NCBI RefSeq assembly: GCF_024362785.1
Contig: NZ_CP093301.1
Location: 2,170,001 to 2,234,000 of the forward strand
Length of the DNA: 64,000 nucleotides
Origin: Evansella sp. LMS18
GTDB lineage: Bacteria; Bacillota; Bacilli; Bacillales; Salisediminibacteriaceae
Direction of reading: 5' to 3'
How positions within the stretch are numbered: the first letter of the stretch is position 1; every line of letters begins with the position of its first letter. The notes beneath the pieces were generated by a model. The model was not told the origin of the DNA. It saw nothing but the letters and a program-made list of their open reading frames with translations, and did not search any database. Shown here piece after piece: positions 12,020 to 51,275 of the stretch. Made by a program: the position numbers and the translations under genes.

Positions 12020-13411
12020 GCTAGTGAGGTGCCGCAAGAGTGTCATGGGGTTCCTGAGTGTAGCTTCAGAAGTACTAAGTACCACAAGAATTACTTACGG
12101 TACTTGAGAATGGGAAATGTTGCTGCTCAAGGGATGCAAGAGGCTCTTGCGGGAATTGAGAATGGTAGAGGTTGCTGTTCAAGGGATGCAAGAGGCTCTT
12201 GCGGGAATTGAGAAGGAGGGAGGTTGCTGTTCAAGAGATGCAAGAGGCTCTTGCGGGAATTGAGAATGGGAAAAGTTGCTGTTCAAGGGATGCAAGAGGC
12301 TCTTGCGGGAATTGAGAATGGGAAGGTTGCTGCTCAAGGGATGCAAGAGGCTCTTGCGGGAATTGAGAAAGGGAAAGGTTGCTGTTCAAGGGACGCAAGA
12401 GGCTCTTGCGGGAATTGAGAAAGGGAAAGGTTGCTGTTCAAGGGATGCAAGAGGCTCTTGCGGGAATTGAGAAGGAGGGAGGTTGCTGCTCAAGGGATGC
12501 AAGAGGCTCTTGCGGGAATTGAGAAGGAGGGAGGTTGCTGCTCAAGGGATGCAAGAGGCTCTTGCGGGAATTGAGAAGGGGAAAGGTTGCTGCTCAAGGG
12601 ATGCAAGAGGCTCTTGCGGGAATTGAGAAGGGGAAAGGTTGCTGTTCAAGGGATGCAAGAGGCTCTTGCGGGAATTGAGAAGGGGAAAGGTTGCTGTTCA
12701 AGGGATGCAAGAGGCTCTTGCGGGAATTGAGAAGGGGAGAGGTTGCTGTTCAAGGGATGCAAGAGGCTCTTGCGGGAATTGAGAAAGGGAAAGGTTGCTG
12801 CTCAAGGGATGCAAGAGGCTCTTGCGGGAATTGAGAAAGGGAAAGGTTGCTGTTCAAGGGATGCAAGAGGCTCTTGCGGGAATTGAGAAAGGGAAAGGTT
12901 GCTGTTCAAGGGATGCAAGAGGTTCTTGCGGGAATTGAGAAGGAGGGAGGTTGCTGCTCAAGGGATGCAAGAGGCTCTTGCGGGAATTGAGAAAGGGAAA
13001 GGTTGCTGTTCAAGGGATGCAAGAGGCTCTTGCGGGAATTGAGAAAGGGAAAGGTTGCTGCTCAAGGGATGCAAGAGGCTCTTGCGGGAATTGAGAAAGG
13101 GAGAGGTTGCTGCTCAAGGGATGCAAGAGGCTCTTGCGGGAATTGAGAAGAGGAAAGGTTGCTGTTCAAGGGATGCAAGAGGCTCTTGCGGGAATTGAGA
13201 AAGGGAAAGGTTGCTGTTCAAGGGATGCAAGAGGTTCTTGCGGGAATTGAGAAAGGGAAAGGTTGCTGTTCAAGGGATGCAAGAGGCTCTTGCGGGAATT
13301 GAGAATGGGGAAGGTTGCTGCTCAAGGGATGCAAGAGGCTCTTGCGGGAATTGAGAAGGAGGGAGGTTGCTGCTCAAGGGATGCAAGAGGCGCTTGCGGG
13401 AATTGAGGAAG
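12020..13411. repeat. 52-bp tandem hairpin array A (25 strong units plus 2 eroded)
   Basis: The core GCAAGAGGCTCTTGCGGGAA recurs at 12136, 12188, 12240, 12292, 12343 and then every 52 bases to 13383, 25 times. Two eroded cores in phase (12034, 12084) precede them. Each core is a perfect GCAAGAG-G-CTCTTGC hairpin. In units with CTCAAGGGAT before it, an outer CTCAA/TTGAG pair extends the stem. Between cores the sequence varies slightly (GAAAGGGAAAGGTTGCTG, GAAGGAGGGAGGTTGCTG), so variants are shuffled along the array. 52 is not a multiple of three and all frames break, so it is not a protein repeat. It lies between the wrbA terminator and the convergent dbpA gene. Confidence 0.95.
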
Positions 13412-13446
13412 GGAATCCCATCAACTCAAGTAACGAAAGAGTATGA

Positions 13447-13489
13447 TTCGTTCCCTCAGCGAGAGGAACCCGGCAATTGAGGGAACGAA
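13447..13489. repeat. 12-bp inverted repeat next to array A
   Basis: TTCGTTCCCTCA (13447-13458) and TGAGGGAACGAA (13478-13489) are perfect inverted copies 19 bases apart. No T-run follows, so it is not a typical terminator. A C-homopolymer (about 11 C) lies at 13509 in the same gap. The GGAACGAAAG end resembles the AACGAAA core of the 21-bp arrays. Confidence 0.6.
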
Positions 13490-13637
13490 AGGCGGACGGA
13501 ATTTTCCACCCCCCCCCTCTTATCCTCCAATGATAAGACTTAAGAAGACAAGTTACCCCAACAGCCCCCTCAGAAATGCCAGCAGAGACAGAGACTTAGA
13601 CTAATTTGCCCAGATTATTGCCGATATGCAGACCCCT

Positions 13638-15089
13638 TTATGTCCTCGCTTTAGCTTTATGAACCTTCAGCTGTTTACCTTTAATCGTTTTGCCCTTCAT
13701 TTCCTGGAGAACCAGGGAACCCTTGCCGTTCAGGATCTCAACATAAGTAGCGGATTCCTGAATAGTAATAATCCCGATGTCATCGCCTGTAATACCTGGA
13801 ATACTCGTTATGGTGCCAACGAAGTCGACTGCCCTGAGCTTCTTTTTCTTGCCGCCATTAAAATAGAGTTTCATTATATTTTTATTAACTGCCGCACTTT
13901 TGTCTTTTTTCTCCGGAGCTTTTGTACTGATTTTTTGATTAAATAAATCTTTATTTACAGAAACCTCTTCTTGATCAGGCACTTTCCTGACAGGAATCGA
14001 AAAGCCGATGTATTCCTGGATTTCCTCTACAAATCTATTGTCCCGGGGCGTCGCAAACGTAATTGCTTTTCCAGTGTTGCCGGCTCGGCCGGTTCTGCCG
14101 GTGCGATGTACATAACTTTCTTTTTCCATCGGGGTATCGTAATTGACCACGAGGGAAATGTTGTCCACGTCAATTCCCCGTGCAGCCACATCCGTAGCTG
14201 CTAAATAGCGGAATCTTCCTTGTTTAAAAGCATTCATGACAGAGAATCTGTCTTTTTGGACGAGGCCGCCGTGCAGCTTTTCGCACGGATAACCAGCCCT
14301 CTTCAGCTGGCTGAACAGTTTGTCCACTTTTTCCTGAGTGTTGCAGAAAATGATGCAGCTGTCGGGATTCTCCGCAACAGTTACATCTTTAAGCAGGGAA
14401 AACTTGTTTTCCTCCCTGACTTCAAGGAGTTCATGGCTGATTTTTTCCGTCGTCACTCCTGTACCGGCAATTTCCACGTCCACAGGATCGGTCATATATT
14501 TACCGCAGAGCCTCTGGACATCTTCAGGAATAGTTGCGGAAAAAACAGCGGTCATTCTGTCTGCGGGCAGCTCATTAATAATTGCTTCCACCTGGTCAAT
14601 GAAGCCCATATTCAGCATCTCATCGGCTTCATCAATAACCAGATATTCAATTTTATCCACTGCCAGCGTCCCTTTCTGAATATGGTCAAGGGTACGTCCA
14701 GGTGTTCCCACCACTACATGATTTTTCTGCTTAAGTTCAAGTTTTTGCCTGTCGAAAGGCTCTTTTCCGTAAATGGCAGCTGCTTTGACCCGCTTAAACC
14801 TGCCGATGTGGGTAATGTCCTCTTTGACCTGAGCGGCGAGTTCCCGTGTTGGTGTGAGCACCAGTGCCCGGGGCCTGTTCTCTTCCCATTCTGCCAGTTC
14901 ACAGAGAGGAATACCGAAGGAAGCGGTTTTCCCGGTACCTGTCTGCGATCTCACAATCAAATCTTTTTTCTGGAGAAAAACAGGAATCACTTTTTGCTGC
15001 ACCTCGGTTGGCTTTTTATAATGCAGCTGTTCCAGCGCTTCGAGGATTTCCCCGCTTAGTTTAAAATCTTTAAAATTACTTGTACTCAT
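13638..15089 (-). CDS. dbpA: DEAD-box RNA helicase DbpA/YxiN
   Basis: A 483-residue helicase. Motifs in order: Q motif near 28-33, Walker A as [10 protein letters not shown] (about 49-58), [16 protein letters not shown] ([13 protein letters not shown]), SAT, then [11 protein letters not shown] and [10 protein letters not shown] in the second RecA domain. The last 75 residues (from about [19 protein letters not shown]) form the DbpA RNA-binding domain (PF03880), which directs the enzyme to hairpin 92 of 23S rRNA. It therefore acts in late assembly of the large ribosomal subunit. Length matches B. subtilis YxiN. GAGGTTG stands before the ATG. Confidence 0.95.
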
Positions 15090-15184
15090 CTATTTACAAC
15101 CTCATTTTCCGGTAGTTTAACGAATTTAACGAACTTACACTATGTCTTCCCATTTTTTAAACGGATATGCAATTTCAAACTGAA

Positions 15185-15231
15185 GAAAAAAGCAACTGCC
15201 TGTAAAAATGGGCAGTTGCTAGCTTTTTTTC
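15185..15231 (-). terminator. Terminator after htpX
   Basis: AGCAACTGCC and GGCAGTTGCT form a 10-bp stem with T-runs on both sides (read on the minus strand it ends in TTTTTTC), placed just after the htpX stop and before dbpA. Confidence 0.88.
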
Positions 15232-15233
15232 TG

Positions 15234-16151
15234 TTAACGCTCTTCAAGGCGTGCGATTCGCTCATCGAGATCAGGGTGGGAGGAGAACAGCTTGGCCACT
15301 CCGCCTTTTCCGCTGATTTTCATTGTAGCGATTGCTGAGTCATCGGTGCGGTCATTGTTAACATTCGCACGGTCAACATGTCTTTTAAGGGAACGAAGCG
15401 CGTGTGCCATTTTATCACGGCCTGCCAGGTCGGCTCCGCCACGGTCCGCATGGAATTCACGGTAACGGGAGAATGCCATAACGACGATACTTCCAAGGAT
15501 CGAGAACAGGATCTGGAAAATGATAATTGCTGCGAAACGTACAACAGTCTGCATTTCGGAACGTACGAGTCTGGATACTAGGATTGCAGCTATTCTGGAG
15601 AAGAAAACAACAAACGTGTTAACTACCCCCTGAAGCAGTGTCATCGTAACCATATCGCCGTTGGCAACGTGGGCAACCTCGTGTGCGATAACACCTTCGA
15701 CGGCATCATCATCCATGGAATTAAGCAGTCCTGATGATACAGCCACGAGGGAACGCTTTTTCGAAGGTCCTGTTGCAAAGGCGTTTACTTCAGGTGACTG
15801 GTAGATCCCGACTTCCGGCATGTGAGGAAGCCCTGCAGCACGGGAAAGGCGGTGCACCTTTTCAACTACTGCACGCTCCTGTGAAGTTAAATTGTCGTTC
15901 GGATCGAGCACTTTTACTTTCATCATCTTCTTTGCCATCCATCTGGACATGGCAAGAGAGATAAAGGAACCAGTAAAACCAACTAAAAGACTGAATACGC
16001 CAAGAGCAACTAAATCTATTCCCAGGCCAGGGCCGCCAGTATCAAAAGTGCCGCCGATGTCTGTGAATGAAACGATAAGCCCCCAGACGATAACAATCGT
16101 TGTCATAACGAGAATGTTTGTCAAAATAAAAAATAAAACTCTTTTCCCCAT
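15234..16151 (-). CDS. htpX: Membrane zinc metalloprotease HtpX
   Basis: A 305-residue M48 protease. Two N-terminal membrane segments (about 5-27 and 46-68) precede the catalytic part. The zinc motif HEVAH is at 157-161, followed by two hydrophobic segments and the distal Glu in [15 protein letters not shown] (about 231-245). HtpX degrades misfolded membrane proteins in the inner membrane and cooperates with FtsH. The length and the order of segments fit the family. The gene is preceded by its own A/T-rich promoter region. Confidence 0.95.
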
Positions 16152-16459
16152 CGTAGTCCTCCATATCTATAGTATAGTAATATATTTTATCACGTTTTCG
16201 CAGGCTGGTCAGGTTATTGTCCCTGAATAAGAGGCAACTAACCAGATTTTTTTCTGCCAATAGTTTTATACGGAAAGCAAGGGAAAAGGTTTCAGATTTA
16301 ATTTGAAAATGTAAGGTTCCCTGTCCAGGTGTAGGATTGCTGGGCTGGAGTTGCGGGACAGTATAAGGGGGAGTGGAAGAGAAGGGAAATTATTTTCATA
16401 TTACATACATTTTTTCCAGTTAATTTGAAAACCTAACAATGGAAAGTGAGGTGCCAGGA
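16152..16459. other. Divergent intergenic region, htpX / DUF3231 gene
   Basis: About 310 bases carrying the promoters of two divergent genes. A 6-bp CTGTCC...GGACAG pair around 16319-16359 is too short to interpret. No riboswitch, small gene or repeat-family member was seen here. Confidence 0.4.
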
Positions 16460-17017
16460 ATGCCAAATCCTTTTGAGGCTGTATGGAATATGTTGAAAAT
16501 CGGAGTGGATTCTGCAGATGAACCAACCGCTCCGCTGAATATTATAGAGGCGGGTGACTGCTGGAAATACATGACAATGGTTGAGAATTTCCTCCGTTAT
16601 GAGGAAACGGGGATGAATACATCTACAGATGACGAAATAAGAGAAATGCTGAACGATGTGATTAAAGTGTGTGAATCACAGGCAGAAAGGCTTTCGAAGT
16701 TTATGAAACAGGAAGGGATACCTTTACCAGATGTTACTTCCGCAAAGCCGGTCTCCAACCCTAATGAAATTCCTCTTGGAGTTAAACTCACTGATGATGA
16801 AATCGCAAACGGAATTGCATTTAAAATGGTATTATGCGCGCAGCATTGTGCAAAAGGCCAGGCAGATGCCATTCGTTATGATATTGGAATGCTTTGGCTT
16901 GAGTTTTTCTCTGAATGGGTGACATTCGGAGCTACTTTGAAAGCGCTGATGAGGAAGCGGGGGTGGCTTAAAGTACCGCCGTACTATTACACTCCAGGCT
17001 CCCCGCAGGAAAAATAA
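16460..17017 (+). CDS. DUF3231 family protein, single-domain form
   Basis: A 185-residue protein that starts at the ATG preceded by AGTGAGGTG; the ATG at 16439 lacks a ribosome site. It carries the DUF3231 (PF11553) pattern of a long helical bundle with KPVSNPNEIPLGVKLTDDEIAN around residues 100-122. Most family members in Bacillus contain two such repeats in about 340 residues, so this is the half-size form. The fold is ferritin-like and the function is not established; several members are linked to spores or stress. It stands alone and has its own terminator. Confidence 0.8.
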   Translation: MPNPFEAVWNMLKIGVDSADEPTAPLNIIEAGDCWKYMTMVENFLRYEETGMNTSTDDEIREMLNDVIKVCESQAERLSKFMKQEGIPLPDVTSAKPVSNPNEIPLGVKLTDDEIANGIAFKMVLCAQHCAKGQADAIRYDIGMLWLEFFSEWVTFGATLKALMRKRGWLKVPPYYYTPGSPQEK

Positions 17018-17033
17018 TGAACTTTCACTTATC

Positions 17034-17060
17034 GCCGGTCTCATTGTGAGGCCGGCTTTT
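17034..17060 (+). terminator. Terminator after DUF3231 gene
   Basis: GCCGGTCTCA-TTG-TGAGGCCGGC forms a tight 10-bp stem with one G-T pair, then TTTT. Confidence 0.8.
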
Positions 17061-17317
17061 ACTATGTTCACAAAATCGTGCGGGGTCTGGCCCCTGAACG
17101 TTTTTTGGGTTGCAGGAAACTATTTTGGTTTGGATTTCGTCTAAGATAGAGTGGAGTATTTTATTTCTTGTAAATTTTCAAAAAATATATGCATTTTTTA
17201 AGGGAATAAATGTATATTAGATATATTAAATAGGAAGGAGCTGGACACGCAGTTTCATTTTCTAATAAGCTTCGGGAAAAACAGCCTTTCAGAAAAAAAG
17301 AGAAAGCAGGGGGAGTC

Positions 17318-19705
17318 ATGATCAGAAAACTATCAATAGCAGCTTTAATTCTTTTTCTTTTTAGTTTCACACTGCCTTTCTTTGCAGTGTCAGCTGATGA
17401 AGAAGAGCGTATTACAGTCTCAACGGAGATAGGCTTCAATAACTTAATCAAGGCCAACCGGGGATTCCCGATTGCTGTCACCCTGAAAAACAATGGCGAG
17501 GACATCTCAGGGGAACTGGCGATCGCGGTCATGCCAGGGTACAACTGGAATAATGGCATGGTTATCACACAGGCAGACCTGCCGGCAAACAGTGAAAAAA
17601 CCTTCATACTGAGCCTTCCTGGGTACAGTAATATGCACTATGGCGGTCCCGGGCCAGCGCCTGACGATATCCATTTTTACGAAGGCGGCTGGCAAGATGG
17701 GAAAAAAGTAAAGCTCGGGGGACAGACAAAATTAACCCCGGCCCATATAAATGAGGATGACCTTGTTGTCGGGCTGCTGACAGATAACCCCGATGCGTTT
17801 AACTACCTGAAAAATGCCCGGGCTGCCCACGGGAATTCCATGCGGATAGTTCCCGTCGATCCGAAGCAGATTCCGAACGATTCAACTGGGTTAACAATGT
17901 TTAATACTATCATCATCGATCAGTATTCCGTGGCGGAGGCGCTGAGCCCGGAACAGCAGGACGCGGTGGAAGCATGGGTGGAGTTTGGAGGCACACTCGT
18001 TATAGGAGCTGACCCGGGATTACAGCAGAAGCTTGACAGTCTTGCAGTACTCCTGCCTATGGGATCAGAGATGAATACGAAAAAAGAAGATGCTGAATTT
18101 TTTAATAAAGGTGACCGGAAATACCCTGCTAAAACAATAGATCTGACAGCCGGAGCTGTTTCAGATGGAGCTAATATCCTGCAGAGGGCTGAATCAGGCA
18201 CCCCGGTTGCAGCAAGGGCCTTCCATGGAGGCGGGCAGGTAGTGCAGCTGGCATTCTCCCCAGGAGCTAAAACGTTTGCGGAGTGGGATGGGGCAGAGTC
18301 TTACTGGACGGAAACCTTCCAGTCAGTGATAACCCCTAACTATATGGATTATGAGTCTGTTTATGACAGATTAAACTGGGGTCTGGCAGAAACGACAAGT
18401 TTATTCCCTTCATCCTTCCTGCCGTTTTCAGTGCTCGTTACGATATTCATAGTTTACGTACTTATAATTTTCCCAGTCATTTACTTCCTGTTGAAAAAAT
18501 TCGATAAGCGGGAGCACTCGTGGTGGATCCTTCCGGCTATATCTCTCGTAATATCTGCGGGGATATTCGGTTTTGGAGGCAAGGACAGAATCGCACAGCC
18601 GCAGATCAACGAATCTCTCGTGGTAACTGTCGATGAACAAGGCGAAGGCCGGGGCTACGGAAGTATTTCCGTGTTAAGCAATAATAGCGGGGACTATGAA
18701 CTCAATGTGGCAACAGCCGGTTTTGCAGCTTTTCCAATACGAAGAGATTATCCTATGGGCGGTACAATTGATGAGCCGGATGGAGGAATCAGGCAGCAAG
18801 GGGATCAGCTGGATATCTTATTTAAGGACGTTGAATACTGGTCTATACGAAATGCTTCCGGGCCGGTTTCAAAGATTGCTATAGGAGGGTTTGAAACGGA
18901 CCTGGGAATAAACGAAGAGCAGGAAATTACAGGCACCGTTACAAATCCAACAGAATTACAAATCGATGAACTTTTATTCCTGTCAGGGAGGCAGAAAGAA
19001 TCTTTAGGCTCGTTAGGCCCTGGGGAAACAATGGAGGTATCCTTTGAGCTCACTGGATCGCTGCTGCAGGCGCCAGTGCCTGATTACCATTACCACTATA
19101 CACCGGACATGGAGCTGGCAGAGCGGAAAAAAGAAGATTTAATGAGCACAATGCATGAATTTGGAATGTTTGAAAAAGGGAAGCCTGTCCTCGCCGCTTT
19201 TACAGGCGATCAATTACTGAACAGCAGCATTTCAGGCAGGGAGGCCCTGACAGAACGAACGGGCCTGATTGTCCAGCCTCTTGATTTTAAAGATCATTTA
19301 ACCGGTCCTTTTGAGCTTAAGCCGGAAGATCTGCCGCCATATTTTTATTCAATAGACGGGGATATAGGCTACCATGATGTAGATTTGCATGCCGGGGAAC
19401 GGTCGGTTTACGCCCCGGCAGGGAAGTATGAGTTCAGTTATACAGTGCCTGTTGAACAACTGGAGAATAATGCAAAATTCCTGGAACTTGGAATCAAGAT
19501 TCGTAACAGCGGGGGCTTTACGTATGAGCTGTTTAACTTTGAAACAGAATCCTTTGATCCTCTCGATGAGAACAATACGTTTAAGAACCCTGGTAAATAT
19601 ATTGAGGAATATGGCCAGATTCGCATTCAAGTATCAAAAGGCGAGATGCCTGATGAAGTTTTCATTCCTGAGTTGTCCCTGAAAGGAGAAATGAAACGTG
19701 ATTGA
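17318..19705 (+). CDS. Large exported membrane protein, first gene of ABC-MoxR-vWA operon
   Basis: A 795-residue protein with GGGGGAG before its ATG. Residues 1-26 are a Sec signal ending VSA. A beta-rich extracytoplasmic part follows, starting like an NEW3/CARDB-type adhesion fold (IAVTLKNNGEDISGELAIAV). Around 145-230 a Rossmann-like stretch (VEAWVEFGGTLVIGADPG) resembles the catalytically dead GATase-like domains in this type of operon. Two membrane segments lie near 368-390 and 398-416, and the long C-terminal half is again beta-rich. The next gene overlaps it by 8 bases. I do not know a named homologue; a receptor or substrate-presenting role for the ABC exporter is inference. Confidence 0.7.
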   Translation: MIRKLSIAALILFLFSFTLPFFAVSADEEERITVSTEIGFNNLIKANRGFPIAVTLKNNGEDISGELAIAVMPGYNWNNGMVITQADLPANSEKTFILSLPGYSNMHYGGPGPAPDDIHFYEGGWQDGKKVKLGGQTKLTPAHINEDDLVVGLLTDNPDAFNYLKNARAAHGNSMRIVPVDPKQIPNDSTGLTMFNTIIIDQYSVAEALSPEQQDAVEAWVEFGGTLVIGADPGLQQKLDSLAVLLPMGSEMNTKKEDAEFFNKGDRKYPAKTIDLTAGAVSDGANILQRAESGTPVAARAFHGGGQVVQLAFSPGAKTFAEWDGAESYWTETFQSVITPNYMDYESVYDRLNWGLAETTSLFPSSFLPFSVLVTIFIVYVLIIFPVIYFLLKKFDKREHSWWILPAISLVISAGIFGFGGKDRIAQPQINESLVVTVDEQGEGRGYGSISVLSNNSGDYELNVATAGFAAFPIRRDYPMGGTIDEPDGGIRQQGDQLDILFKDVEYWSIRNASGPVSKIAIGGFETDLGINEEQEITGTVTNPTELQIDELLFLSGRQKESLGSLGPGETMEVSFELTGSLLQAPVPDYHYHYTPDMELAERKKEDLMSTMHEFGMFEKGKPVLAAFTGDQLLNSSISGREALTERTGLIVQPLDFKDHLTGPFELKPEDLPPYFYSIDGDIGYHDVDLHAGERSVYAPAGKYEFSYTVPVEQLENNAKFLELGIKIRNSGGFTYELFNFETESFDPLDENNTFKNPGKYIEEYGQIRIQVSKGEMPDEVFIPELSLKGEMKRD

Positions 19706-23145: not shown

Positions 23146-23150
23146 AAATA

Positions 23151-24140: not shown

Positions 24141-24142
24141 CT

Positions 24143-29840: not shown

Positions 29841-29922
29841 TTCCTGAATGAGGTTGATTCATCCCTTGAGGGGAGTGGTTTCTACCACTGGATTCCTGAA
29901 TGAGTGTGATTTATCCCTTGAG
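29841..29922. repeat. Two-unit 52-bp repeat
   Basis: TTCCTGAATGAGGTTGATTC and its next ten bases (29841-29870) recur at 29893-29922 with four changes. The offset is exactly 52 bases, the same unit length as arrays A and C. The unit contains a small AGTGGT-TTCT-ACCACT hairpin, and its CATCCCTTGA equals the reverse complement of TCAAGGGATG in array A. It appears to be a short or eroded member of that family. Confidence 0.7.
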
Positions 29923-29951
29923 CGCACAGAATCCTTCTCTGGGTTCATCTA

Positions 29952-30136
29952 GACGGAAGAATTCCGGTTAATTAGTAATTATTATTAAAAAATGCTTAAA
30001 TAGGCGGAGAGATTCCGCCTATTTACTCGAAAAATTTAAAAATAGGAGATTTTGTTTTGCTTAACCGGAAATCCTCCCCTTATATCACCCCTAAACGAGC
30101 TCCAAACTTCATATAAACGGAAAATCTCCGTTTATC
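29952..30136. repeat. 185-bp four-hairpin dispersed element, copy 2
   Basis: Homologous over its length to 1926-2110 and 57493-57679. The second hairpin is perfect here: AAATAGGCGGA (29998-30008), loop GAGAT, TCCGCCTATTT (30014-30024). The fourth is ATAAACGGA-AAATC-TCCGTTTAT near 30112-30134. It lies between the vWA operon terminator and the membrane-protein gene at 30384. Confidence 0.85.
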
Positions 30137-30226
30137 CCGATGTAACTGTCCGTCAAATTCCTGAGTGGAAGCGAAGATGTTTAGGCGGGGGATAACGGAT
30201 GCTAACATCCCGATTGGTTCAACTAA

Positions 30227-30262
30227 CAATCAGTGGGGGAGGAATAAAACCCCCACTGATTG
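30227..30262. repeat. Perfect 13-bp inverted repeat
   Basis: CAATCAGTGGGGG (30227-30239) and CCCCCACTGATTG (30250-30262) enclose 10 bases. No T-run follows on either strand, so it is not a usual terminator. It could be a transcript-stabilising hairpin in the leader of the 30384 gene or a mobile-element relic. Confidence 0.7.
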
Positions 30263-30383
30263 AAGGTTCACTGTATTTTGCTTCTGTTAATATATCGTTT
30301 GATGCCTGCCAGAATTCCATCTCACATGAATCCGCACCCAAAGGGCATCCTATTAACATTCTTGATGAAGCGAGTGATTTCGG

Positions 30384-34264: not shown

Positions 34265-34336
34265 GTGTGGTTGGGGAGGGGGGGGGGTGAGGTAAGGTGA
34301 GAGGGTGTTGCGTTCCCGAACTGGAGAAATCAGGGA

Positions 34337-34754
34337 TTTTAATCAACGAAATCGGACAATCAATCAACGAAACGAGTATTCAATCAACGAAAAAAGATGT
34401 TCAATCGTCGAACAGGGGTTTAATCAACGAAACCGAGCAATCAATCAACGAAAAAGGATGTTTAATCGTTCGAACAGGGGTTTAATCAACGAAATCGGAC
34501 AATCAATCAACGAAAACGAGTATTCAATCAACGAAAAAAGATGTTCAATCGTCGAACAGGATTTTAATCAACGAAATCGGGCAATCAATCAACGAAACGA
34601 GGCATTTAATCAACGAAAAAAGATGTTCAATCGTCGAACAGGGTTTTAATCAACGAAATCGGGCAATCAATCAACGAAATGAGGCATTCAATCAACGAAA
34701 AAGGATGTTCAATCGTCGAACAGGATTTCAACCAACGTAAATAAACATTTAACC
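34337..34754. repeat. 21-bp phased array, AATCAACGAA type (about 20 cores)
   Basis: The core AATCAACGAA (or AATCGTCGAA) repeats about 20 times, mostly 21 bases apart, with a 19-base step after cores followed by CAGG. Four core types follow one another in a fixed order (CGAAATCGG, CGAAACGAG, CGAAAAAAGATG, CGTCGAACAGG), giving a higher-order repeat of about 82 bases. The array fills the space between the murJ terminator and the terminator of the convergent ATP-grasp gene. The 19- and 20-base steps break every reading frame. Confidence 0.9.
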
Positions 34755-38323: not shown

Positions 38324-38540
38324 TTATTGAAAACAGCGATTCTATCCTCGAAGTGAAGCCTAATTCTCGAAATCCGTGTTCTGATTCTCGAAAACGATGG
38401 TCTATTTCTCGAAATCAGGTATCCAATTCTCGAAGTGAAGTTCAAATCTCGAAATCAGTGCTCCTATTCTCGAAACCAGGGGTCTAATTCTCGAAATAAG
38501 TCATTCAATTCTCGAAGTGATCCCAAATTATCAAACAGAG
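38324..38540. repeat. 21-bp phased array, ATTCTCGAA type (9 clear cores)
   Basis: CTCGAA recurs nine times from 38347 on, usually as ATTCTCGAA. Steps are 21 bases, but 19 whenever the core is followed by GTGA. Two eroded cores (ATTGAA, ATCAAA) continue the same phase on both sides. The array lies in the divergent space between the DUF421 and MarR genes, so it could also touch their promoters. Confidence 0.88.
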
Positions 38541-42058: not shown

Positions 42059-42071
42059 CGGAAGTGGTCAC

Positions 42072-43269: not shown

Positions 43270-43354
43270 CTTTTAAAAAAAATTTTGAGTGAGAATAGTA
43301 ATCATTATCACCATATTTGAGGCTTAGTTTTTTCAGACGCTAAGTATATACAGG

Positions 43355-43387
43355 AAGACAGCCGTACCCCCTGCGGCTGTCTTTTTT
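43355..43387 (+). terminator. Terminator of the siderophore operon
   Basis: AAGACAGCCG and CGGCTGTCTT form a perfect 10-bp stem around a 9-base loop, followed by TTTT. Confidence 0.9.
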
Positions 43388-43434
43388 CAAAGGATGTAGC
43401 TGTTTTTCTAGCGGTGGAGGATTGCGCGGAACTT

Positions 43435-44100
43435 AGCAGTCAGGAATTGAGAATCAAAAATAATCGGAAACTCAGGTCATGCAAGAAGCTCTTGCGTTAC
43501 TTGAGAATCGAAAATCGGAAACTCAGGTCATGCAAGAAGCCCTTGCGTTACTTGAGAATCGAAAATGGGAAACTCAGGTCATGCAAGAAGCGCTTGCGTT
43601 ACTTGAAAATTGAAAATCACAAACTCAGGTCACGCAAGAAGCGCTTGCGTTACTTGAAAACCGAAAATCGGAAACTCAGGTCATGCAAGAAGCCCTTGCG
43701 TTACTTGAAAATTGGAAATTGGAAACTCAGGTCATGCAAGAAGCCCTTGCGTTACTTGAGAATCAAAAATCGGAAACTCAAGTGATGCAAGAAGCGCTTG
43801 CGTTACTTGAAAACCGAAAATCGGAAACTCAAGTGATGCAAGAAGCTCTTGCGTTACTTGAGAATCGAAAATTACAAACTCAGGTCATGCAAGAAGCGCT
43901 TGCGTTACTTGAGAATCAAAAATCGGAAACTCAAGTGATGCAAGAAGCGCTTGCGTTACTTGAGAATCGAAAATCAGAAACTCAGGTCATGCAAGAAGCT
44001 CTTGCGTTACTTGAGAATCAAATATCGGAAACTCAGGTGATGCAAGAAGCCCTTGCGTTACTTGAAAACCGAAAATCGGAAACTCAGGGCATGCAAGTTA
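43435..44100. repeat. 51-bp tandem hairpin array B (12 units plus partial)
   Basis: The core GCAAGAAGCnCTTGCGTTAC starts at 43481 and then every 51 bases without a single slip to 44042, with a partial unit at 44093. Each unit forms a hairpin with GCAAG/CTTGC inside. Outer arms are CTCAAGT or CTCAGGT against ACTTGAG, so the one change keeps pairing as G-T. The core shares ATGCAAGA-GCTCTTGCG and TTGAGAA with array A. Frames are open because 51 is a multiple of three (repeat MQEALALLENRKSETQV), but there is no ribosome site and a second frame is just as open. Between the yclQ terminator and hmoA. Confidence 0.93.
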
Positions 44101-44249
44101 TTATGCCGAAATGCGTTATGGAGCAAACCCCCATAGTTATCACGCCGAGTTGGAGCACAATCACGCGAAACAAAGTAGTTATCGCGCGTAACCTAATTAA
44201 CCTACCACGCAAAAACCTGATTACATAACAAAAAGGGAGCTGATGAGAG

Positions 44250-44573
44250 ATGTTTGTTACACTCAGAAAAATGGTCGTTACGGAAGGTAACGGAGATAAA
44301 GTCACCGAAAGGTTCGGAAGTCCTGGAGTTATTGAGGAACAAGAGGTATTTGTTGATTTGACTGTCATGAAACAAAAAGCAAAGCGTGGGGAAGAAGAAG
44401 TGATTGTATTGATGCGCTGGGAATCAGAACAGCACTGGAAGCAGTGGGAAAAAAGCGAAGTTCATATAGCTATGCATAAAGCAAATTTAGGGAAACCAAA
44501 GCCAGAATACATCATCAGTGCTGAAGGCGGCAGGTATGAAGTGCAGGCAGTGAAAACAGCTGCTGAAAAGTGA
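44250..44573 (+). CDS. hmoA: Heme-degrading monooxygenase, HmoA/IsdG family
   Basis: A 107-residue ABM-fold protein close to B. subtilis HmoA (YetG): it starts MFVTLRKMVVTEGNGDKV and has RWESEQHWKQWEKSEVH and HKANLGKPKPEYIIS. Family members open the heme ring in the cytosol and release iron. GGGAG lies ten bases before the ATG. Its place behind the Fur-controlled siderophore operon suggests a common role in iron supply, though the terminator and array separate them; no clear Fur box was seen directly before it. Confidence 0.9.
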   Translation: MFVTLRKMVVTEGNGDKVTERFGSPGVIEEQEVFVDLTVMKQKAKRGEEEVIVLMRWESEQHWKQWEKSEVHIAMHKANLGKPKPEYIISAEGGRYEVQAVKTAAEK

Positions 44574-44794
44574 GAGTGACCAAAATGAGCTCCTTCAGAG
44601 TGACTAATTAACAGGTAAAAAACTGTTAATAAATTTACTGCTTGTGCAGTTAAGGAATCACTTCAAAAATAATTCCAACCTTATGCTAAGCCAGCATGGG
44701 GTTTTCTTTATGTAAATAGCTTTAAAGAAAGGATATTTGAAATCAAAAGTTTAATTAAGTAAGGGTAAATACTCGGGAGAGAAATGAGTGGGGA

Positions 44795-46417
44795 ATGTTG
44801 AAAACAAAGAGTAAAGTCAGGCGGATGTGGAAAATACTGTCGCTCGCTTTTATCATTTTTATTCAAATCTACTGGTTCAAGATCAGCAAAAAAACCGAGG
44901 CTGAGTGGGAAAAACTGTGGGAGAGCATCGGTATCAGGTTCAGGCGGACACTATTTGAACTGGAAGGCTTGCTCATTAAAATCGGCCAGTTTTTAAGTAT
45001 TCGTGCTGATTTGCTCCCTCACGAATTTATCCGCCAGATTCAGGATCTGACAGATAAAGTGCCTCCTTCTGAATGGGAAGAGGTGGAGAGAATCCTCGAA
45101 GCTGAATGGGGCGCCCCCATAGAAGATCACTTTGAGTTTCTCGATAAAAAAGCAGTCGCATCAGCGTCAATTGGAGAAGTCTATAAAGGGGCATTGAAAG
45201 ACGGCACGGAAACTGCTGTTAAAGTTCAGCGGCCGTATATACAGTCAATTATTCAAACTGATTTCAGGACACTTAAAATTATTATCTGGTTTGTGGATCA
45301 TTTACTTCCCGTGCCTAAAGGGTTTATTAACTTTAAAGTTCTGTTTCAGGAATTGAAACAAGTGATTGAGAGAGAGCTTGATTTTTCCAAAGAAATGAAT
45401 TCCCTGCTTTACTTCAAGAATCGTTTTAAAAATACAGAGGAAGTAAAAATACCGGATGTTTATCCGGAGCTTAGTACGAAGAAAGTTCTTGTGATGGAAT
45501 GGGTGGAGGGAATCAGGCTGACAGATGACGAACGGCTTGGGGAGCTTGGGGTAAGCCGCAAGGAGCTGGCAAAGAGGTTAATCAGCATATTTCTGCCCCA
45601 ATGGCTTGAACCTGGCGCATTTCATGCTGATCCCCATTCTGGAAATATTCATGTAACGAAGGAAGGAAAGATCATCCTTCTTGACTTCGGGATGGTTGGT
45701 GAAATTTCTAAGCGGGACGCAGTCCATTTCCAGGCACTTATTGAAGGCTTCCTGTCGAAAAATTATCCAAAGGCAGTGGAGAGCTTAACACATTTAGGAT
45801 TCCTGCTTCCTGAAGCCGATCCCCGGACGATGGAAAGGCTGCTTGCGGAATTGATGTCTTTCCAGCCGTCCCAGCTGAAGGAAATGGATCTCGTGGCTTT
45901 AAAGCTGGAAATGAACGATATGGTGAGAGCATTGCCAATACAGGTGCCCACAAGATTTGTTTTTCTTGGGAGATCGTTTATAACGATTGAAGGAATTGTG
46001 CGCAGCCTCGCTTCCGATAAAGAGCTGACGGACATGGTAAAACCGGTGTTTATGGACTGGCTTAATAAGCAGGGAAATAACAAGTGGTCATTTATCTGGT
46101 ACTGGCTGCAGTCCCAGCCGTTATTTAAACTGATCCACTCCTTTACAGAGTTTTCGAAGCTCCCGCAAAAGCTTGAACATCTGAAGGAAAACGAGCAGCG
46201 GAGGGAGTTTCAGTTTACGATTTATGAAAACAGTAAGAAGCGCTTTTTCCAGGTAATGCTGCTTGGATTTGTTGGGGCCATAGCAGGTTTTTATACTGCT
46301 GAAACAATGATCCTCTACATCTCTGCAGGGTTGGCTGCAGCTGGCGGTGCAGGCTTTTTCATCTACGGCCATAAGCTGAAAAAATGGATGAGGTTTATGC
46401 ATGAAATAAGGCGATGA
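44795..46417 (+). CDS. AarF/ABC1/UbiB-family atypical kinase
   Basis: A 540-residue protein. The family motifs are present: LIKIGQFLSIRADLLP (KxGQ, about 60-75), the Ala-rich loop ASASIGEVYKG in place of the glycine loop, LDFSKEMNS, HADPHSGNI and LLDFGMVG. The first 30 residues contain a membrane segment and two more lie at the C-terminus (about 488-525). UbiB-type proteins support quinone synthesis or lipid transport, with ATPase rather than protein-kinase activity. A mini-frame MSGEC with a good ribosome site (44784-44801) overlaps the start and may couple translation. Confidence 0.9.
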   Translation: MLKTKSKVRRMWKILSLAFIIFIQIYWFKISKKTEAEWEKLWESIGIRFRRTLFELEGLLIKIGQFLSIRADLLPHEFIRQIQDLTDKVPPSEWEEVERILEAEWGAPIEDHFEFLDKKAVASASIGEVYKGALKDGTETAVKVQRPYIQSIIQTDFRTLKIIIWFVDHLLPVPKGFINFKVLFQELKQVIERELDFSKEMNSLLYFKNRFKNTEEVKIPDVYPELSTKKVLVMEWVEGIRLTDDERLGELGVSRKELAKRLISIFLPQWLEPGAFHADPHSGNIHVTKEGKIILLDFGMVGEISKRDAVHFQALIEGFLSKNYPKAVESLTHLGFLLPEADPRTMERLLAELMSFQPSQLKEMDLVALKLEMNDMVRALPIQVPTRFVFLGRSFITIEGIVRSLASDKELTDMVKPVFMDWLNKQGNNKWSFIWYWLQSQPLFKLIHSFTEFSKLPQKLEHLKENEQRREFQFTIYENSKKRFFQVMLLGFVGAIAGFYTAETMILYISAGLAAAGGAGFFIYGHKLKKWMRFMHEIRR

Positions 46418-46433
46418 TAAGGCCAGGAAAAAC

Positions 46434-46466
46434 AAAAAAGGCTTAGAGTTCCCTAAGCCTTTTTTG
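46434..46466. terminator. Bidirectional terminator
   Basis: AAAAAAGGCTTAG and CTAAGCCTTTTTT pair perfectly around a 6-base loop. It serves the AarF gene and the convergent lipoprotein gene. Confidence 0.92.
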
Positions 46467-46470
46467 TGGA

Positions 46471-46959
46471 CTACAGATTTGCTGTCAGCTTCTCGCCGGT
46501 CGTAAAATCAACCTCAAGCTCCAGCTTCCGTATGTCTTCTTCAGCAATATCGAGTGCGGCAAGAACCTGGGCCACAGCTTCCTCAGATGACATACCAGGA
46601 TGGAGTGCAGCCTGGTCAAGGAGGTCCCTGATTTCTGTTAGTGCCTGTTCACCACTGATTTCTTCCTTTCCTTCAGCAGTCTCCCTTTCAATTTCAGCTG
46701 AGGAGGAGCCGCCTCTGTCTTCATACTCCATGTCCAGCTCGTCATTGTTTTCGAAGTCTATTTCAAGTTCGAAGTCTTCAATCTCAGGTGTTTCGCCGGT
46801 GCCTTCACCCATATCGCCGGTGTCTCCCATTTCCTCAGTATTATTTTGCATATTCGGATCATCTCCTGGAGTGTCTGCGGCACCGTTGTCCGTTCCGCAG
46901 CCTGTTAAAAAGAAAGCCGCAGTCAAAGTAAGAATAATATTTTTCCTGAATTTTTTCAT
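46471..46959 (-). CDS. YusW-like lipoprotein
   Basis: A 162-residue lipoprotein; lipobox FLTGC places the lipidated Cys at 21. An acidic Gly/Met/Asp/Thr linker (to about 57) is followed by the YusW-like domain (PF14039): EDFELEIDFENNDELDMEYE at the start, a helical middle with SGEQALTEIRDLLDQA, and a closing LELEVDFTTGEKL. The family is widespread in Bacillus with unknown role. It is not linked in an operon to the M42 peptidase gene, 47 bases upstream in the same direction, with certainty, but co-transcription is possible. Confidence 0.85.
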   Translation of the reverse strand: MKKFRKNIILTLTAAFFLTGCGTDNGAADTPGDDPNMQNNTEEMGDTGDMGEGTGETPEIEDFELEIDFENNDELDMEYEDRGGSSSAEIERETAEGKEEISGEQALTEIRDLLDQAALHPGMSSEEAVAQVLAALDIAEEDIRKLELEVDFTTGEKLTANL

Positions 46960-47006
46960 GTTGATTTCACCTCTTATTTTCCTGGTGTCTCTGTTCCCTG
47001 ACTCCG

Positions 47007-48083
47007 TTATTCCAGCCCGGTAATTTTCTGCACCATGTTATCATCAAGCTTTTTGATTACCTCGCAAAGCAGCTTTACTGCGTTATCCAGATCATCATGA
47101 TGCACGACAGAGACGTGGCTGTGGATGTATCTCGCAGGAACGCTCACTGCAAGTGTCGGCACCCCATCGTGGGCTACATGGAACTTACCTGCGTCGGTCC
47201 CGCCGCCGCTCATAATATCCACCTGGTAAGGGATGTCATTCTGTTTCGCTGTTTCCATCACAAAATCCCGCAGTTTCCGGTGGGGAATCATGGACCGGTC
47301 CATCAGATAGATAATTGGTCCGTCCCCAAGCTTCAGCCCTGATTCCTCCTGGTTCATCCCAGGTATATCTCCGGCGACACCTACATCTGTGGCAAAAGCA
47401 ATCTGGGGAGCGATTTTATTGGCTAATGTCTCTGCACCTCTGAGGCCAACCTCCTCCTGAACAGTAGCACCGGAATAGAGTGTGTTTGGCAAGGACTCAC
47501 CTTTTAATTTTTCCAGAACCTTCAAAGCTATGTAACAGCCTGCCCGGTTGTCCCATGTCCGGCTCAGGAGCAGCTTTTCATTTGCCAGCGGCTCGAACGG
47601 GCATACTGTCGCCACAGGGTCGCCAACAGAAACACCGAATGATTCAGCTTCCTCCCGGGAACTGGCCCCGATATCAACAAACATTTTATCGATTGGGAGC
47701 ACCTTTTTCCGTTCCTCCGGCGGCAAAACATGAGGAGCCTTTGAACCGACAATACCGGTCAAGTCCCGGGACTTTGTCAGCACTTTTACTCTTTGGGAGA
47801 GGAGAACATGCCCCCACCAGCCTCCAAGGGGTTTAATACGTAAAAAACCTTGTTTCGTTATGGCACTGACAATAAACCCAACCTCATCTAAATGGCCTGC
47901 CAGAAGCACTTTATTTTTACCGCTGCCGACCTTCCCCACGATACTTCCTAAATTATCTGTTTCCAACTCATTTGTATGGCTGGAGATTTCTCTTTTCATC
48001 ACGTTATACACCCGGTCTTCGAAACCAGGCAGTCCTTCTGTTTCCGTTAGCTCTCTCATTAGCTGATGATCAGTTGTTGACAC
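47007..48083 (-). CDS. M42-family aminopeptidase
   Basis: A 358-residue zinc peptidase of the YsdC/FrvX/TET group. Metal and catalytic residues appear in LLAGHLDEVGF (His, Asp), RTWDNRAGCY (Asp), TVQEEVGLRGA (catalytic Glu-Glu), ATDVG (Asp) and IHSHVSVVH (His). Such enzymes form dodecameric cages and trim peptides in the cytosol. The protein begins at an ATG preceded by GGGGGG (weak). The length is that of the family. Confidence 0.93.
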   Translation of the reverse strand: MSTTDHQLMRELTETEGLPGFEDRVYNVMKREISSHTNELETDNLGSIVGKVGSGKNKVLLAGHLDEVGFIVSAITKQGFLRIKPLGGWWGHVLLSQRVKVLTKSRDLTGIVGSKAPHVLPPEERKKVLPIDKMFVDIGASSREEAESFGVSVGDPVATVCPFEPLANEKLLLSRTWDNRAGCYIALKVLEKLKGESLPNTLYSGATVQEEVGLRGAETLANKIAPQIAFATDVGVAGDIPGMNQEESGLKLGDGPIIYLMDRSMIPHRKLRDFVMETAKQNDIPYQVDIMSGGGTDAGKFHVAHDGVPTLAVSVPARYIHSHVSVVHHDDLDNAVKLLCEVIKKLDDNMVQKITGLE

Positions 48084-48219
48084 GGCGGAGCCCCCCTGTT
48101 TTTTTACTAATAGAATCAGTTAAGAAAGGATTTTTTATACAGAAGTGTTGTAAATTACCTTGACGATAGTCGTTTCCCATGTCTTAAGTGGAAGTAGAAG
48201 AGGCAGGGGAGGGGAACAA

Positions 48220-49311
48220 ATGGGTAAAACATTGGAAGCATTAGTAAAGAAGGAACTGGGCAGTGCGAGGGAGGCCAGTCTTGCAATCGGGGTTGTGTCG
48301 AGGGATGGAAAATCAGTCACGGGATACTTTAATGAGATTTTTGAGTGTGTGCATCCAAGGAACTATGTTTTTGAAATGGGGTCGACGACAAAGACGTTCA
48401 CAAGCTTGCTCCTCGCCATACTCGTAAAGGAAGGGAAAGTATCACTGGACGACCCAGTGAAAAACTATAAGCCGGAATATGAGAAGGCATTGTCTTTTAA
48501 CGGGAAGGACATAACTTTCAGGCATCTTGCGGTTCACCGCTCAGGGCTTCCACGGGAAGATATGAAAAAACTAAGGCAGCGGATCAAGGAAAACAAAGAG
48601 GAAAAGGATAACCCTTTTAAATACTTTACTGAAGAGGACCTGCACGAGTTTTACACGAACCATCAACTGAAGAGAGAAGTGGAGAAAAAATGGCAGTACT
48701 CCAATATAGGCATCGGACTTCTTGGTAACACACTTGCGGAAATAGAAGGAATGTCCTATGAAGATGCTGTGAGGGTTCGGATTCTGGAACCCCTCGGGAT
48801 GAATGACACGTTTATCACCGGCACTCCTGAGCAGAACAGCCGGTATTTGAAGGCTTATAATAAGAAGGGTGAGCGGGTTCCGCCTATTGAGCTTGCTGCG
48901 ATCAATGGAGCAGGGGCACTGAAAAGCACGCTGAACGATATGTTAATTTACTTAGAACATCAGACAGGGTTAACAGACAGCCCCTTAAAGGAAGCCATCG
49001 AGTTAACCCATCAAATCCATGGAAAAACAAGCGCGAAGAAAATTAAAATGGGATTAGGCTGGATGATTGAAGAGAAAAAATGGAGCCAGTATCCTGTTAT
49101 TCATCACGGAGGAACGACCATTGGTTTTCATACTTACTGTGCTTTTATAAAAGAGATACAGGCAGGTGTGGTCATCTTCTCCACCATTCAACTGAAGCCA
49201 TGGAGAATTATTAAGATGCTTACAAATATAGAAGGGCTTGTAAATGAAAGCATCGCAGAAGAGCTTTTCAAGGAGGAGTTAATGAAGGCGGAAACAAGAC
49301 AGACAGATTGA
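48220..49311 (+). CDS. Serine hydrolase, class C beta-lactamase fold
   Basis: A 363-residue protein; the ATG follows GGGGAGGGGAAC. The SxxK motif is STTK in FEMGSTTKTFTSLLLAI (about residue 56), the YxN motif is YSN in KWQYSNIGIGLLG, and HHGGT is the KTG-like element. No signal peptide is present, so it should be cytoplasmic, unlike secreted beta-lactamases. Relatives are esterases or D-aminopeptidases. The following hydrolase gene is 21 bases away and probably in the same operon. Confidence 0.88.
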   Translation: MGKTLEALVKKELGSAREASLAIGVVSRDGKSVTGYFNEIFECVHPRNYVFEMGSTTKTFTSLLLAILVKEGKVSLDDPVKNYKPEYEKALSFNGKDITFRHLAVHRSGLPREDMKKLRQRIKENKEEKDNPFKYFTEEDLHEFYTNHQLKREVEKKWQYSNIGIGLLGNTLAEIEGMSYEDAVRVRILEPLGMNDTFITGTPEQNSRYLKAYNKKGERVPPIELAAINGAGALKSTLNDMLIYLEHQTGLTDSPLKEAIELTHQIHGKTSAKKIKMGLGWMIEEKKWSQYPVIHHGGTTIGFHTYCAFIKEIQAGVVIFSTIQLKPWRIIKMLTNIEGLVNESIAEELFKEELMKAETRQTD

Positions 49312-49332
49312 CAGAAACGGAGAGGGATTTTT

Positions 49333-50283
49333 GTGCGGAAGTTTATAAAAATAGCTGGAAGTTTACTAGTTTTGTTAGTAATTATTGCTGCCTTTGCCGC
49401 AGATTATTTTTATGGGGAGGCAGTCAGGCGGGGAACCGAGGTGGAGCTACACCGGGAAGAAGAGGCCGTCCCTGTTTTTCTTGATGAAAGAAATGAAGAG
49501 ATTGTGGAGGAAGCGGAGCAGTGGTACGAGGAGCAGGAGTTTGAAACAGTGGCGATTACCTCCCATGACGGTCTGAAGCTGGAGGCAGATTTTCTTGAAC
49601 ATGAGGAGTCGGATGGGAAAGCTGTCATTCTGGCCCACGGCTTTCGCAGTGAAAGAGTGGATATGGGTGATTTCGTCCAGTTTTATTATGAGAAAGGCTT
49701 CGATGTATTAATGCCTGATTCAAGAGGACATGGCGGAAGCGAAGGAAATTATGTCGGCTACGGCTGGCACGACCGGCTTGACCTGGTCCAGTGGGCGGAG
49801 CTTCTTGCTGGTGAAAAGGAAAGCGGGGATATTTTTCTTCACGGAAGTTCTATGGGAGCTGCAGCAGTGCTGATGGCGAGCGGAGAGGAACTTCCGGCGG
49901 AGGTGAAAGGAATCGTCGCGGACAGCGGCTATACATCAGCGGAAGACATTTTGACCTACCAGCTCGAGCATTTATACGGAATTCCATCTTTTCCGGTGCT
50001 TGATATCACCAGCTTCGTGACTAATATCAGGGTTGGTTTTTATTTCGGTGAGGCTTCCGCGGTCGATCAGGTGGCGAACAACACTCGCCCCCTGTTTATT
50101 GTGCACGGGGAAGGGGACGAGCTTGTCCCTGCCTGGATGTCCGAGGTGCTTTATGAGGCGGCCGGCGGGGAAAAAACATTATGGACAGTTCCGTTCGCCG
50201 GGCACGTGGAATCTTACACAGTAGCAACCACAGAGTACCAGGAACGACTGGCGGAGTTTCTGGAAAGTAGTATGGAAGATTAG
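49333..50283 (+). CDS. Membrane-anchored alpha/beta hydrolase, YqkD-like
   Basis: A 316-residue protein starting at GTG behind GGAGAGGG. The first 28 residues are an uncleaved signal anchor, followed by an acidic linker. The hydrolase domain contains the oxyanion part HGFRSER, the nucleophile elbow HGSSMGAAA (about 171-179), DSRGHGGS, a likely Asp in HGEGDELVP and the His in FAGHVESY. It resembles the S9-like hydrolase YqkD. It acts at the outer membrane face. The substrate is not known. A large repeat array begins 90 bases downstream. Confidence 0.88.
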   Translation: MRKFIKIAGSLLVLLVIIAAFAADYFYGEAVRRGTEVELHREEEAVPVFLDERNEEIVEEAEQWYEEQEFETVAITSHDGLKLEADFLEHEESDGKAVILAHGFRSERVDMGDFVQFYYEKGFDVLMPDSRGHGGSEGNYVGYGWHDRLDLVQWAELLAGEKESGDIFLHGSSMGAAAVLMASGEELPAEVKGIVADSGYTSAEDILTYQLEHLYGIPSFPVLDITSFVTNIRVGFYFGEASAVDQVANNTRPLFIVHGEGDELVPAWMSEVLYEAAGGEKTLWTVPFAGHVESYTVATTEYQERLAEFLESSMED

Positions 50284-50370
50284 GTGATTAGGATAGGTAG
50301 GTTTAGTGGGGCGTTTTGGGGTGGGGGCCAGCGTATGAAATGGAGACTTTGGGGAATATTGGAATTTCCG

Positions 50371-51275
50371 GGACGCTGGAGCGTCCATTGTGCCCGAACT
50401 TCGGGAAATGAGAGAAGAGCGGTAACGTTGGAGCGTCCATCGTGACCGGACTTTGGGAAATAAGAGAAGAAAGGTAACGCTGGAGCGTCCATCATGCCCG
50501 AACTTCGGGAAATGAGAGAAGAAAGGTAACGCTGGAGCGTCCATCATGCCCGAACTTTGGGAAATGCGGGAAGAAAGGTAACGCTGGAGCGTCCATCATG
50601 CCCGAACTTTGGGGAATGAGAGAAGAAAGGTAACGCTGGAGCGTCCATCATGCCCGAACTTCGGAAAGTAGGAGAAGAAAAGTAACGCTGGAGCGTCCAT
50701 CGTGCCCGAACTTTGGGAAATGAGAAAAGAGCGGTAACGCAAGAGAGTCTCGCGTACCCGCTTGGCTAAAAAAATGAAGCGAGCGGTAACGCAAGAGAGT
50801 CTCGCATACCCGCTCGGTTAAAAAAAATGGAGCGAGCGGTAACGCAAGAGAGTCTCACATACCCGCTCGTCCAAAAAAGTGAAGCGAGCGGTACCGCAAG
50901 AGAGTCTCGCATACCCGCTCGGTTAAAAAAAATGGAGCGAGCGGTAACGCAAGAGAGTCTCACGTACCCGCTCGTCCAAAAAAGTGAAGCGAGCGGTAAC
51001 GCAAGAGAGTCTCACATGCCCGCTCAGCCAAAAAAATGAAGCGAGCGGTACCGCAAGAGAGTCTCGCGTACCCGCTCGGCCAAAAAAATGAAGCAAGCGG
51101 TAACGCAAGAGGATCTCGCGTACCCGCTTGGCCCAAGAAATGAAGCGAGCGGTACCGCAAGAGAGTCTCGCGTACCCGCACGGCCAAAAAAAAGTAGCGA
51201 GCGGTACCGCAAGAGAGTCTTGCATACCCGCACGGCCAAAAAAGTGGAGCAAGCGGTAACGCAATAGGGGCTAGC
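50371..51275. repeat. 52-bp tandem array C/D with in-phase switch of unit type (18 units)
   Basis: Seven C units (core GCTGGAGCGTCCAT) begin at 50375 and repeat every 52 bases to 50687. At 50739, exactly 52 further, the core changes to GCAAGAGAGTCTCGC and eleven D units follow with 52 or 53-base steps to 51261. Both types keep GGTAACGC (or GGTACCGC) before the core. D units form a long stem with GAGCGG outside, TAC/GTA inside and GCAAGA/TCTCGC at the tip. One pair is A-C on the plus strand but G-U on the minus strand. The array lies between the hydrolase gene and the terminator of a convergent permease gene. Confidence 0.94.

Follow-up and report, generated by a model that had tools for sequence, protein, structure and literature searches.

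Tandem arrays in the Evansella sp. LMS18 window

The intergenic DNA of Evansella sp. LMS18 contains dozens of tandem arrays of 51–53-bp units that we tentatively read as rows of evenly spaced sites for a putative dimeric DNA-binding protein. The window analyzed here, 64,000 nucleotides long, covers bases 2,170,001–2,234,000 of the 4.90-Mb single-contig genome and includes four such arrays delineated by Tandem Repeats Finder (A, B, C and D) along with a two-unit copy at 29.84 kb that was read from the sequence, which confirms the description of these loci as 51–53-bp tandem arrays in an earlier note on this DNA. Array A occupies positions 12104–13415, with its core, CTCAATTCCCGCAAGAGCCTCTTGCATCCCTTGAA, on the minus strand, and consists of 25.2 copies of a 52-bp unit (94 % match) with a 17-bp linker; a single spacing in this array is 51 bp and the remainder are 52 bp. 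The two-unit copy (29841–29944, plus strand) has one unit beginning at 29841 and the other at 29893, a distance of exactly 52 bp, and array B (43462–44097, core on the minus strand) holds 12.5 copies of a 51-bp unit. Array C (50373–50740; 7.1 copies of 52 bp; core GGTAACGC...CATGCCC) is continuous with array D (50729–51264; 10.3 copies of a 52–53-bp unit; core GAGCGGTAACGCAAGAG...GCATACCCGCTC), both on the plus strand. Over all counted arrays, 197 of the 261 spacings are 52 bp long, 63 are 51 bp and one is 54 bp.

The palindrome that had been taken as common to these loci, GCAAGAG-N0-6-CTCTTGC, is present in the window in 22 matches (0.00 in 100 shuffles), all of which fall inside A. Variants of it occur in B and D (GCAAGAAGCnCTTGC, GCAAGAGAGTCTCGC), and C lacks GCAAGAG altogether (ACGCTGGAGCGT); what all four arrays do share is one 25-nt core, which the C units match ungapped with 6–9 mismatches and in register with D. 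Similarly, the arrays do not always follow a terminator. A terminator-like site called by the program precedes A (11924–11950, plus strand), and terminators are apparent by eye at B, where the program made no call, and at the 29.84-kb copy, where the sequence was inspected by eye; none was called to the left of C/D, and the site called to the right (51307–51334, minus strand) belongs to the gene on that side. Array A is further flanked by a possible decayed unit on the left (12029–12053, plus strand; a degenerate core match with 9 mismatches in 25 positions that might also be due to chance) and, at its right edge, by a degenerate unit of another half-site type (13425–13459, plus strand; model R1, E 6e-4).

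The arrays sit between predicted genes and are considered non-coding because of this position and because 52 is not divisible by 3. Partly open frames in two arrays of 51-bp units (B and L019) are attributed to chance. Given that 51 is a multiple of 3, a coding role was considered for B and rejected, the frame being interrupted.

A dispersed family with a common core

A BLAST search seeded with a 312-bp piece of A resulted in 68 matches in the Evansella genome, at approximately 23 places outside A (rows counted by eye). In the window together with 20 stretches resembling A, 32 of the 33 arrays with a period of 50–54 and at least four copies overlap at least three matches to the 25-nt core GTAACGCAAGAGCGTCTTGCATCCC, and the lone exception (L035, 5898–6402) carries a variant of this core. 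The 32 core groups comprise 362 units and have one majority orientation each, whereas 461 kb of shuffled letters gave 4 matches by chance; groups of fewer than three matches and units with more than eight mismatches were left out, and three arrays (L020, L032 and L033) are split in two by an insertion, so that the 32 groups amount to 29 arrays. Another 20 stretches, 16 spread genome-wide and 4 located around genes for RAYT (REP-associated transposase-like) proteins, yielded four arrays, three with core matches and a fourth of a variant type (L114, 5528–5796). Collectively, the BLAST matches and core groups support the prediction of many copies per chromosome that belong to one dispersed intergenic family of constant unit length. 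The arrays proved to be present elsewhere on the chromosome and in a related species, E. clarkii.

The 32 groups represent differing consensus units within one genome, to which L114 and L035 add further types. Each unit comprises an inverted repeat of 35 nt whose arms form two pairs (positions 1–6/30–35 and 11–16/20–25), followed in most arrays by a linker of 16–17 bp. The orientation of the arrays relative to the neighboring genes obeys no rule, but only 2 of the 29 arrays lie between divergent genes, compared to 49 of 187 background gaps (p 0.02; genes predicted with a home-made gene finder, the background including the array gaps). This scarcity is in line with a function between transcription units or downstream of them, as opposed to one at promoters.

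Units of the C and D types are often joined or interleaved (L022, L029, L031, L035, L114 and window positions 50373–51264), which would be consistent with a combined use of two site variants; L026 14260–14516 appears to contain the D type only. The insertions that interrupt L020, L032 and L033 (13.6–14.95, 9.57–10.95 and 10.4–11.8 kb, respectively) are about 1.37 kb long and encode an identical 391-aa Mutator-type transposase, which we take to be that of IS256; PF00872 was matched for the L032 copy. In both junction cases inspected, the break lies in the linker.

Relationship to published Bacillus satellites

The earlier note knew of no described family with such a unit. This was incorrect, given that satellites of this size have already been catalogued in Bacillus, with 1886 tandem repeats of 51–53 nt and 781 of 20–21 nt in 176 genomes (PMC8161180). 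Subirana and Messeguer report that the satellites keep their size without sequence conservation between species, that the repeats of one species share short sequences, in many cases accompanied by their reverse inside a single repeat, and that the cereus-group genomes of Table 4 are devoid of 51–53-nt arrays (PMC8161180). Beyond this paper and PMC8625621, our literature search returned nothing further on the 52-nt class.

Arrays A, B, C and D all consist of 51–53-bp units in at least four copies, the length definition of the 52-nt Bacillus satellites. Because the window shows both published size classes and the unit length matches, the arrays belong to this known kind (PMC8161180). They also share with it the non-coding nature, the presence of several equal-length families per genome, copy number that varies between strains, and the 20–21-nt arrays as a second class. 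In addition, the arrays of one other genome (G007, L082) match by eye the published cellulosilyticus consensus. The arrays are not species-specific in sequence: their core is common to E. clarkii and to a genome of another family (G061) and, as a pattern, occurs in 33 of 199 genomes. This contradicts the statement made on the class and is no reason to exclude the arrays from it.

A 27-bp site at a 52-bp pitch

The local inverted-repeat score is significant against shuffles in 14 of the 25 published families and 21 of the 32 Evansella groups. Reflection symmetry of the whole unit, which was also tried, made a weak test because the linker is not symmetric (p ≤ 0.05 in 7 of 25 and 11 of 32, respectively). 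Among the even-length units with a significant inverted repeat, the symmetry axis falls on a base in 21 of 22 (12 of 12 for the published ones, with three of the 25 published families, close to others listed, left out of this count), versus 344 odd and 371 even in the shuffles; only a three-copy array of G004 departs from this. The strongest pairing is seen at 11 to 13 bases from the axis. Taken together, the base-centered axis and the position of this maximum suggest that the inverted repeat of the unit is best read as a 27-bp site made of two half-sites and repeated every 52 bp.

Of the 299 genomes from the order, 51 (26 of 117 genera) contain the pattern TGTC-N19-GACA twice at a 52-bp pitch, the highest number of matches in any one genome being 584; as the pattern was suggested by the published Table 1 (PMC8161180), species given there may be represented among the 299. 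TGTC was run at spans of 26, 27 and 28 with the pitch fixed at 52, and the span of 26 was found in one of the 299 genomes and that of 28 in none. A reversed control produced one match in one genome and a second one four matches in three genomes. The Evansella genome itself lacks the TGTC site. Its C/D core type, GGTNA-N17-TNCCC at a 52-bp pitch, was found in 33 of 199 genomes, which cover 18 of the 98 genera; it was run in one geometry, with the reversed pattern as the control (5 matches, in one genome). Some genomes, for example G113 and G117, carry both types. The arms of the GGT class, left as well as right, follow one half-site, GGKMAC and then mostly KATG (letters 1–3 and 5 being fixed by the search), which we take to mean that the half-sites are independent and would be occupied by a dimer on double-stranded DNA. 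Among the loci fetched with TGTC, the span is 27 in 95 cases, with other spans at most 3, and the pitch is 52 in 217 and 51 in 13; these counts are not used as evidence because the loci were fetched with that very pattern.

Thus, the order shows one recurring geometry with two classes of half-site, and the satellite sequence is not free. This differs from the published survey, which regards the satellites as keeping length and not sequence, reports no conservation of sequence across species and offers no lead to function (PMC8161180). A base-centered 27-bp site that recurs at an exact 52-bp pitch in dozens of genomes and nearly disappears when the span changes by 1 bp turns this into a testable question, namely which protein reads the half-site and what the phased array does. 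An exact search pattern for locating the arrays is now given, and the Evansella sp. LMS18 and E. clarkii genomes form a clean pair with shared loci of differing unit number.

Constraint and copy number change

Units differ from one another least in the inner arms (mean diversity 0.046), more in the outer arms (0.099) and most in the linker (0.208; 24 of the 32 groups, arrays of fewer than five units or below 85 % identity to the consensus being left out). Length changes are rare: the arrays show 16 off-mode spacings versus 638 linker substitutions (85 % identity cut-off, at least three spacings), compared to 29 gap openings versus 133 mismatches in flanking intergenic DNA aligned with E. clarkii (Fisher p 1.8e-11), a ratio that is approximate because copied units count repeatedly and badly broken units could be missed.

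When the exact core pattern was searched over named genomes, 16 of the 17 stretches retrieved came from Evansella clarkii (the LMS18 genome is possibly outside the searched set), and the remaining one, in Pseudomonas, looks like chance. Long flank alignments of the common loci are mostly 87–97 % identical to E. clarkii. All 15 arrays compared have an orthologous array in that species, and the copy number differs in all 15, for example 25 and 14 (A), 7 and 28, or 10 and 2 in LMS18 and E. clarkii, respectively; two E. clarkii loci without a sampled LMS18 counterpart (L039 and L046) were left out, and the L040/L035 pair was kept despite only 2 LMS18 units. The three window loci searched by their flanks likewise all retain one unit or more in that species. 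The B locus has 12 units here and one there, the 29.84-kb copy has two and one, with a difference of exactly 52 bp, and the C/D locus has approximately 17 as opposed to 8.3 plus 2.3. As a locus can consist of a single unit, a long array is not required at any given place. Over the 15 pairs, fixed differences are absent from the inner arms (0 of 180 positions) and the apex (0 of 45) and amount to 2 of 120 positions in the internal loop, 6 of 180 in the outer arms and 14 of 255 in the linker, and some of the differences between the species are common to most units of an array, as concerted evolution predicts. Behind B, at 44102–44230, there are short spaced repeats of the ATCACGC type, of which E. 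clarkii has more in the corresponding position.

The arrays might be neutral or selfish satellites that spread rarely and expand by slippage, with the constant length resulting from the copying mechanism rather than from function. This appears to us somewhat unlikely, even though the copy number shifts freely at fixed places (12 versus 1; 2 versus 1 by exactly one unit), units are alike within an array and differ in concert between the species, and insertions are tolerated, three arrays carrying the same transposase gene. Slippage alone provides no reason for one exact length, span and axis in 26 genera, and the 4.5-fold sparing of the inner arms over the linker is not explained by it either. 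Furthermore, none of 18 loci (15 of them picked for their E. clarkii array) has units in only one of the two species.

Proposed function

The reading we prefer, with a probability of about 0.42, is that the arrays are rows of evenly spaced dimer sites which, when bound by a putative protein, form a local nucleoprotein structure in intergenic DNA. Each unit would be a double-stranded DNA site of approximately 27 bp, with two inverted half-sites and a symmetry axis on a base pair. B-DNA has 10.4–10.5 bp per turn, so that 52 bp corresponds to about five turns and successive sites would face the same side of the helix; this phasing may be the reason for the 52-bp unit. A putative dimeric DNA-binding protein would fill the array and polymerize or bridge along it, and the resulting structure, mostly at the 3' ends of genes and rarely between divergent ones, could contribute to the organization of the nucleoid or of transcription units. 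The number of units would change in 52-bp steps via slippage or unequal exchange, which would also keep the units within one array alike. The extension of this model to the whole order is possible but doubtful: the 52-nt satellites would then be one system, the tandem operators of a conserved putative dimeric protein with 27-bp sites at a five-turn pitch, which would form phased filaments between transcription units, the half-site specificity drifting and the geometry remaining fixed.

Several observations weigh against the protein-site reading. No binding protein was found in a search that covered RAYT only, and 27 bp is a non-integer number of helical turns. Arrays of one lineage are non-independent samples. 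The 20 stretches behind the common core were chosen by similarity to A, and an exact core match served to select the 15 E. clarkii loci, so that both the presence of the arrays in that species and the conservation of the core are biased. By our own count, 3 of the 51 genomes positive for TGTC and 4 of the 33 positive for GGT are so on a single match. The difference of 12 units to one in a close species also implies that array length itself is not conserved. The other points on this side are those that speak for structured RNA.

Under that alternative, which we regard as unlikely, the arrays would be RNA hairpins transcribed by read-through and would act as sponges, RNase barriers or precursors of small RNAs. 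Reported transcription of 52-nt satellites in B. coagulans (PMC8625621) speaks for this possibility. Three of the four Evansella units examined folded better than their shuffles (at best –21.9 kcal/mol, z –7.4, for a B unit), but the one C unit among them did not. The strand opposite the core gives the stronger RNA hairpin in 26 of 32 groups, yet among co-directional neighbors the strong strand agrees with the genes in 11 groups and disagrees in 8. The outer arms are swapped between the Evansella subfamilies in a manner that preserves pairing, as a hairpin would require, even if this is largely one switch counted over many rows, whereas single stem changes within arrays (32 G-T and 27 A-C) favor neither strand clearly. 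The half-sites are modular, as a 12-unit Evansella array joins two types of them, GTAACGCAAGAG and ATTCGTTCCC, and persists despite its weak hairpins. The window has no Rfam 15 match at gathering scores; at E values up to 1, run on B and C/D, four matches far below the gathering score were obtained in B and none in C/D.

Comparison of the arms with arms shuffled between units gave divided results. Pairing is better than in the shuffled set in G244 (0.81 vs 0.54) and G205 (0.78 vs 0.65) and weakly so in G103 (7.8 % of shuffles reach the value), but worse in G113, for both pattern classes, and in G194; in G201 it is not clearly better. The sample covered 15 of 16 places for G205, 15 of 24 for G113 and 15 of 208 for G244, and hand-picked distinct units numbered 24 in G113, 15 in G194, 16 in G201 and 14 in G103. 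Although some of these results point the opposite way, the mixed half-sites favor double-stranded protein sites over obligatory hairpins. The label "hairpin" in the earlier note applies to many of the units, although selection probably acts mainly on something other than pairing.

Comparison with REP elements and RAYT transposases

REP/BIME-2 elements of enterobacteria are intergenic palindromic units that form short arrays and are scarce between divergent genes. The arrays described here resemble them, by description only, in being intergenic and palindromic and in avoiding divergent gene pairs, and differ in the fixed 52-bp pitch and the lack of a RAYT gene close by. The bcr repeats of the B. 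cereus group are another set of dispersed repeats in Bacillaceae, likened to the arrays by description only. With CRISPR the arrays share regular palindromic repeats with spacers, but the linkers are alike within an array (diversity 0.21) instead of being unique spacers, and there are many arrays.

Mobilization of REP/BIME-like repeats by a RAYT transposase is a very improbable explanation. RAYT-like genes (NF047646) are represented in the Evansella genome by 4 matches, none above the curated cut-off, and the avoidance of divergent genes noted above would suit such an origin. However, the co-occurrence that had been suggested as a check is not visible: RAYT-like matches were found in 29 of 40 genomes, with the 9 genomes of the genus (LMS18 among them) positive without exception, and matches to the array core model in 5 of 100 (LMS18 again included), two of these having only one or two weak matches. 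The weak R1 matches in G013 and G091 lie outside the arrays that Tandem Repeats Finder detects. None of the four RAYT-like genes of LMS18 adjoins a 52-bp array, the nearest one detected by Tandem Repeats Finder being 3.6 kb away; the gene at approximately 628.7 kb lies about 200 bp from an array of 101-bp period with a different sequence. Arrays of 101-bp units with GGTTCCAGGAACC-like palindromes were observed at L104 10290–10917, L120 14844–15937 and L122 2444–2999.

Other repeats in the window

In addition to the 52-bp arrays, the window contains three arrays of 20–21-bp units, the second published satellite class, at 34334–34742, 38347–38528 and 55714–56005, with periods of 21, 42 and 82. 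These arrays are of the AATCAACGAAA, ATTCTCGAAA and CAATGAACGAAA types, and they contain an ACGAAA motif similar to GGGAACGAAAG, a half-site found in some of the 52-bp arrays (L114 and L035). Finally, a dispersed repeat consisting of two modules, of approximately 186 and 150 bp, is located at 29893–30283 and again at 1925–2108 and 57492–57665. This stretch has no Rfam match at the gathering score, and it produced 46 further matches in E. clarkii, nearly all of them to the modules.

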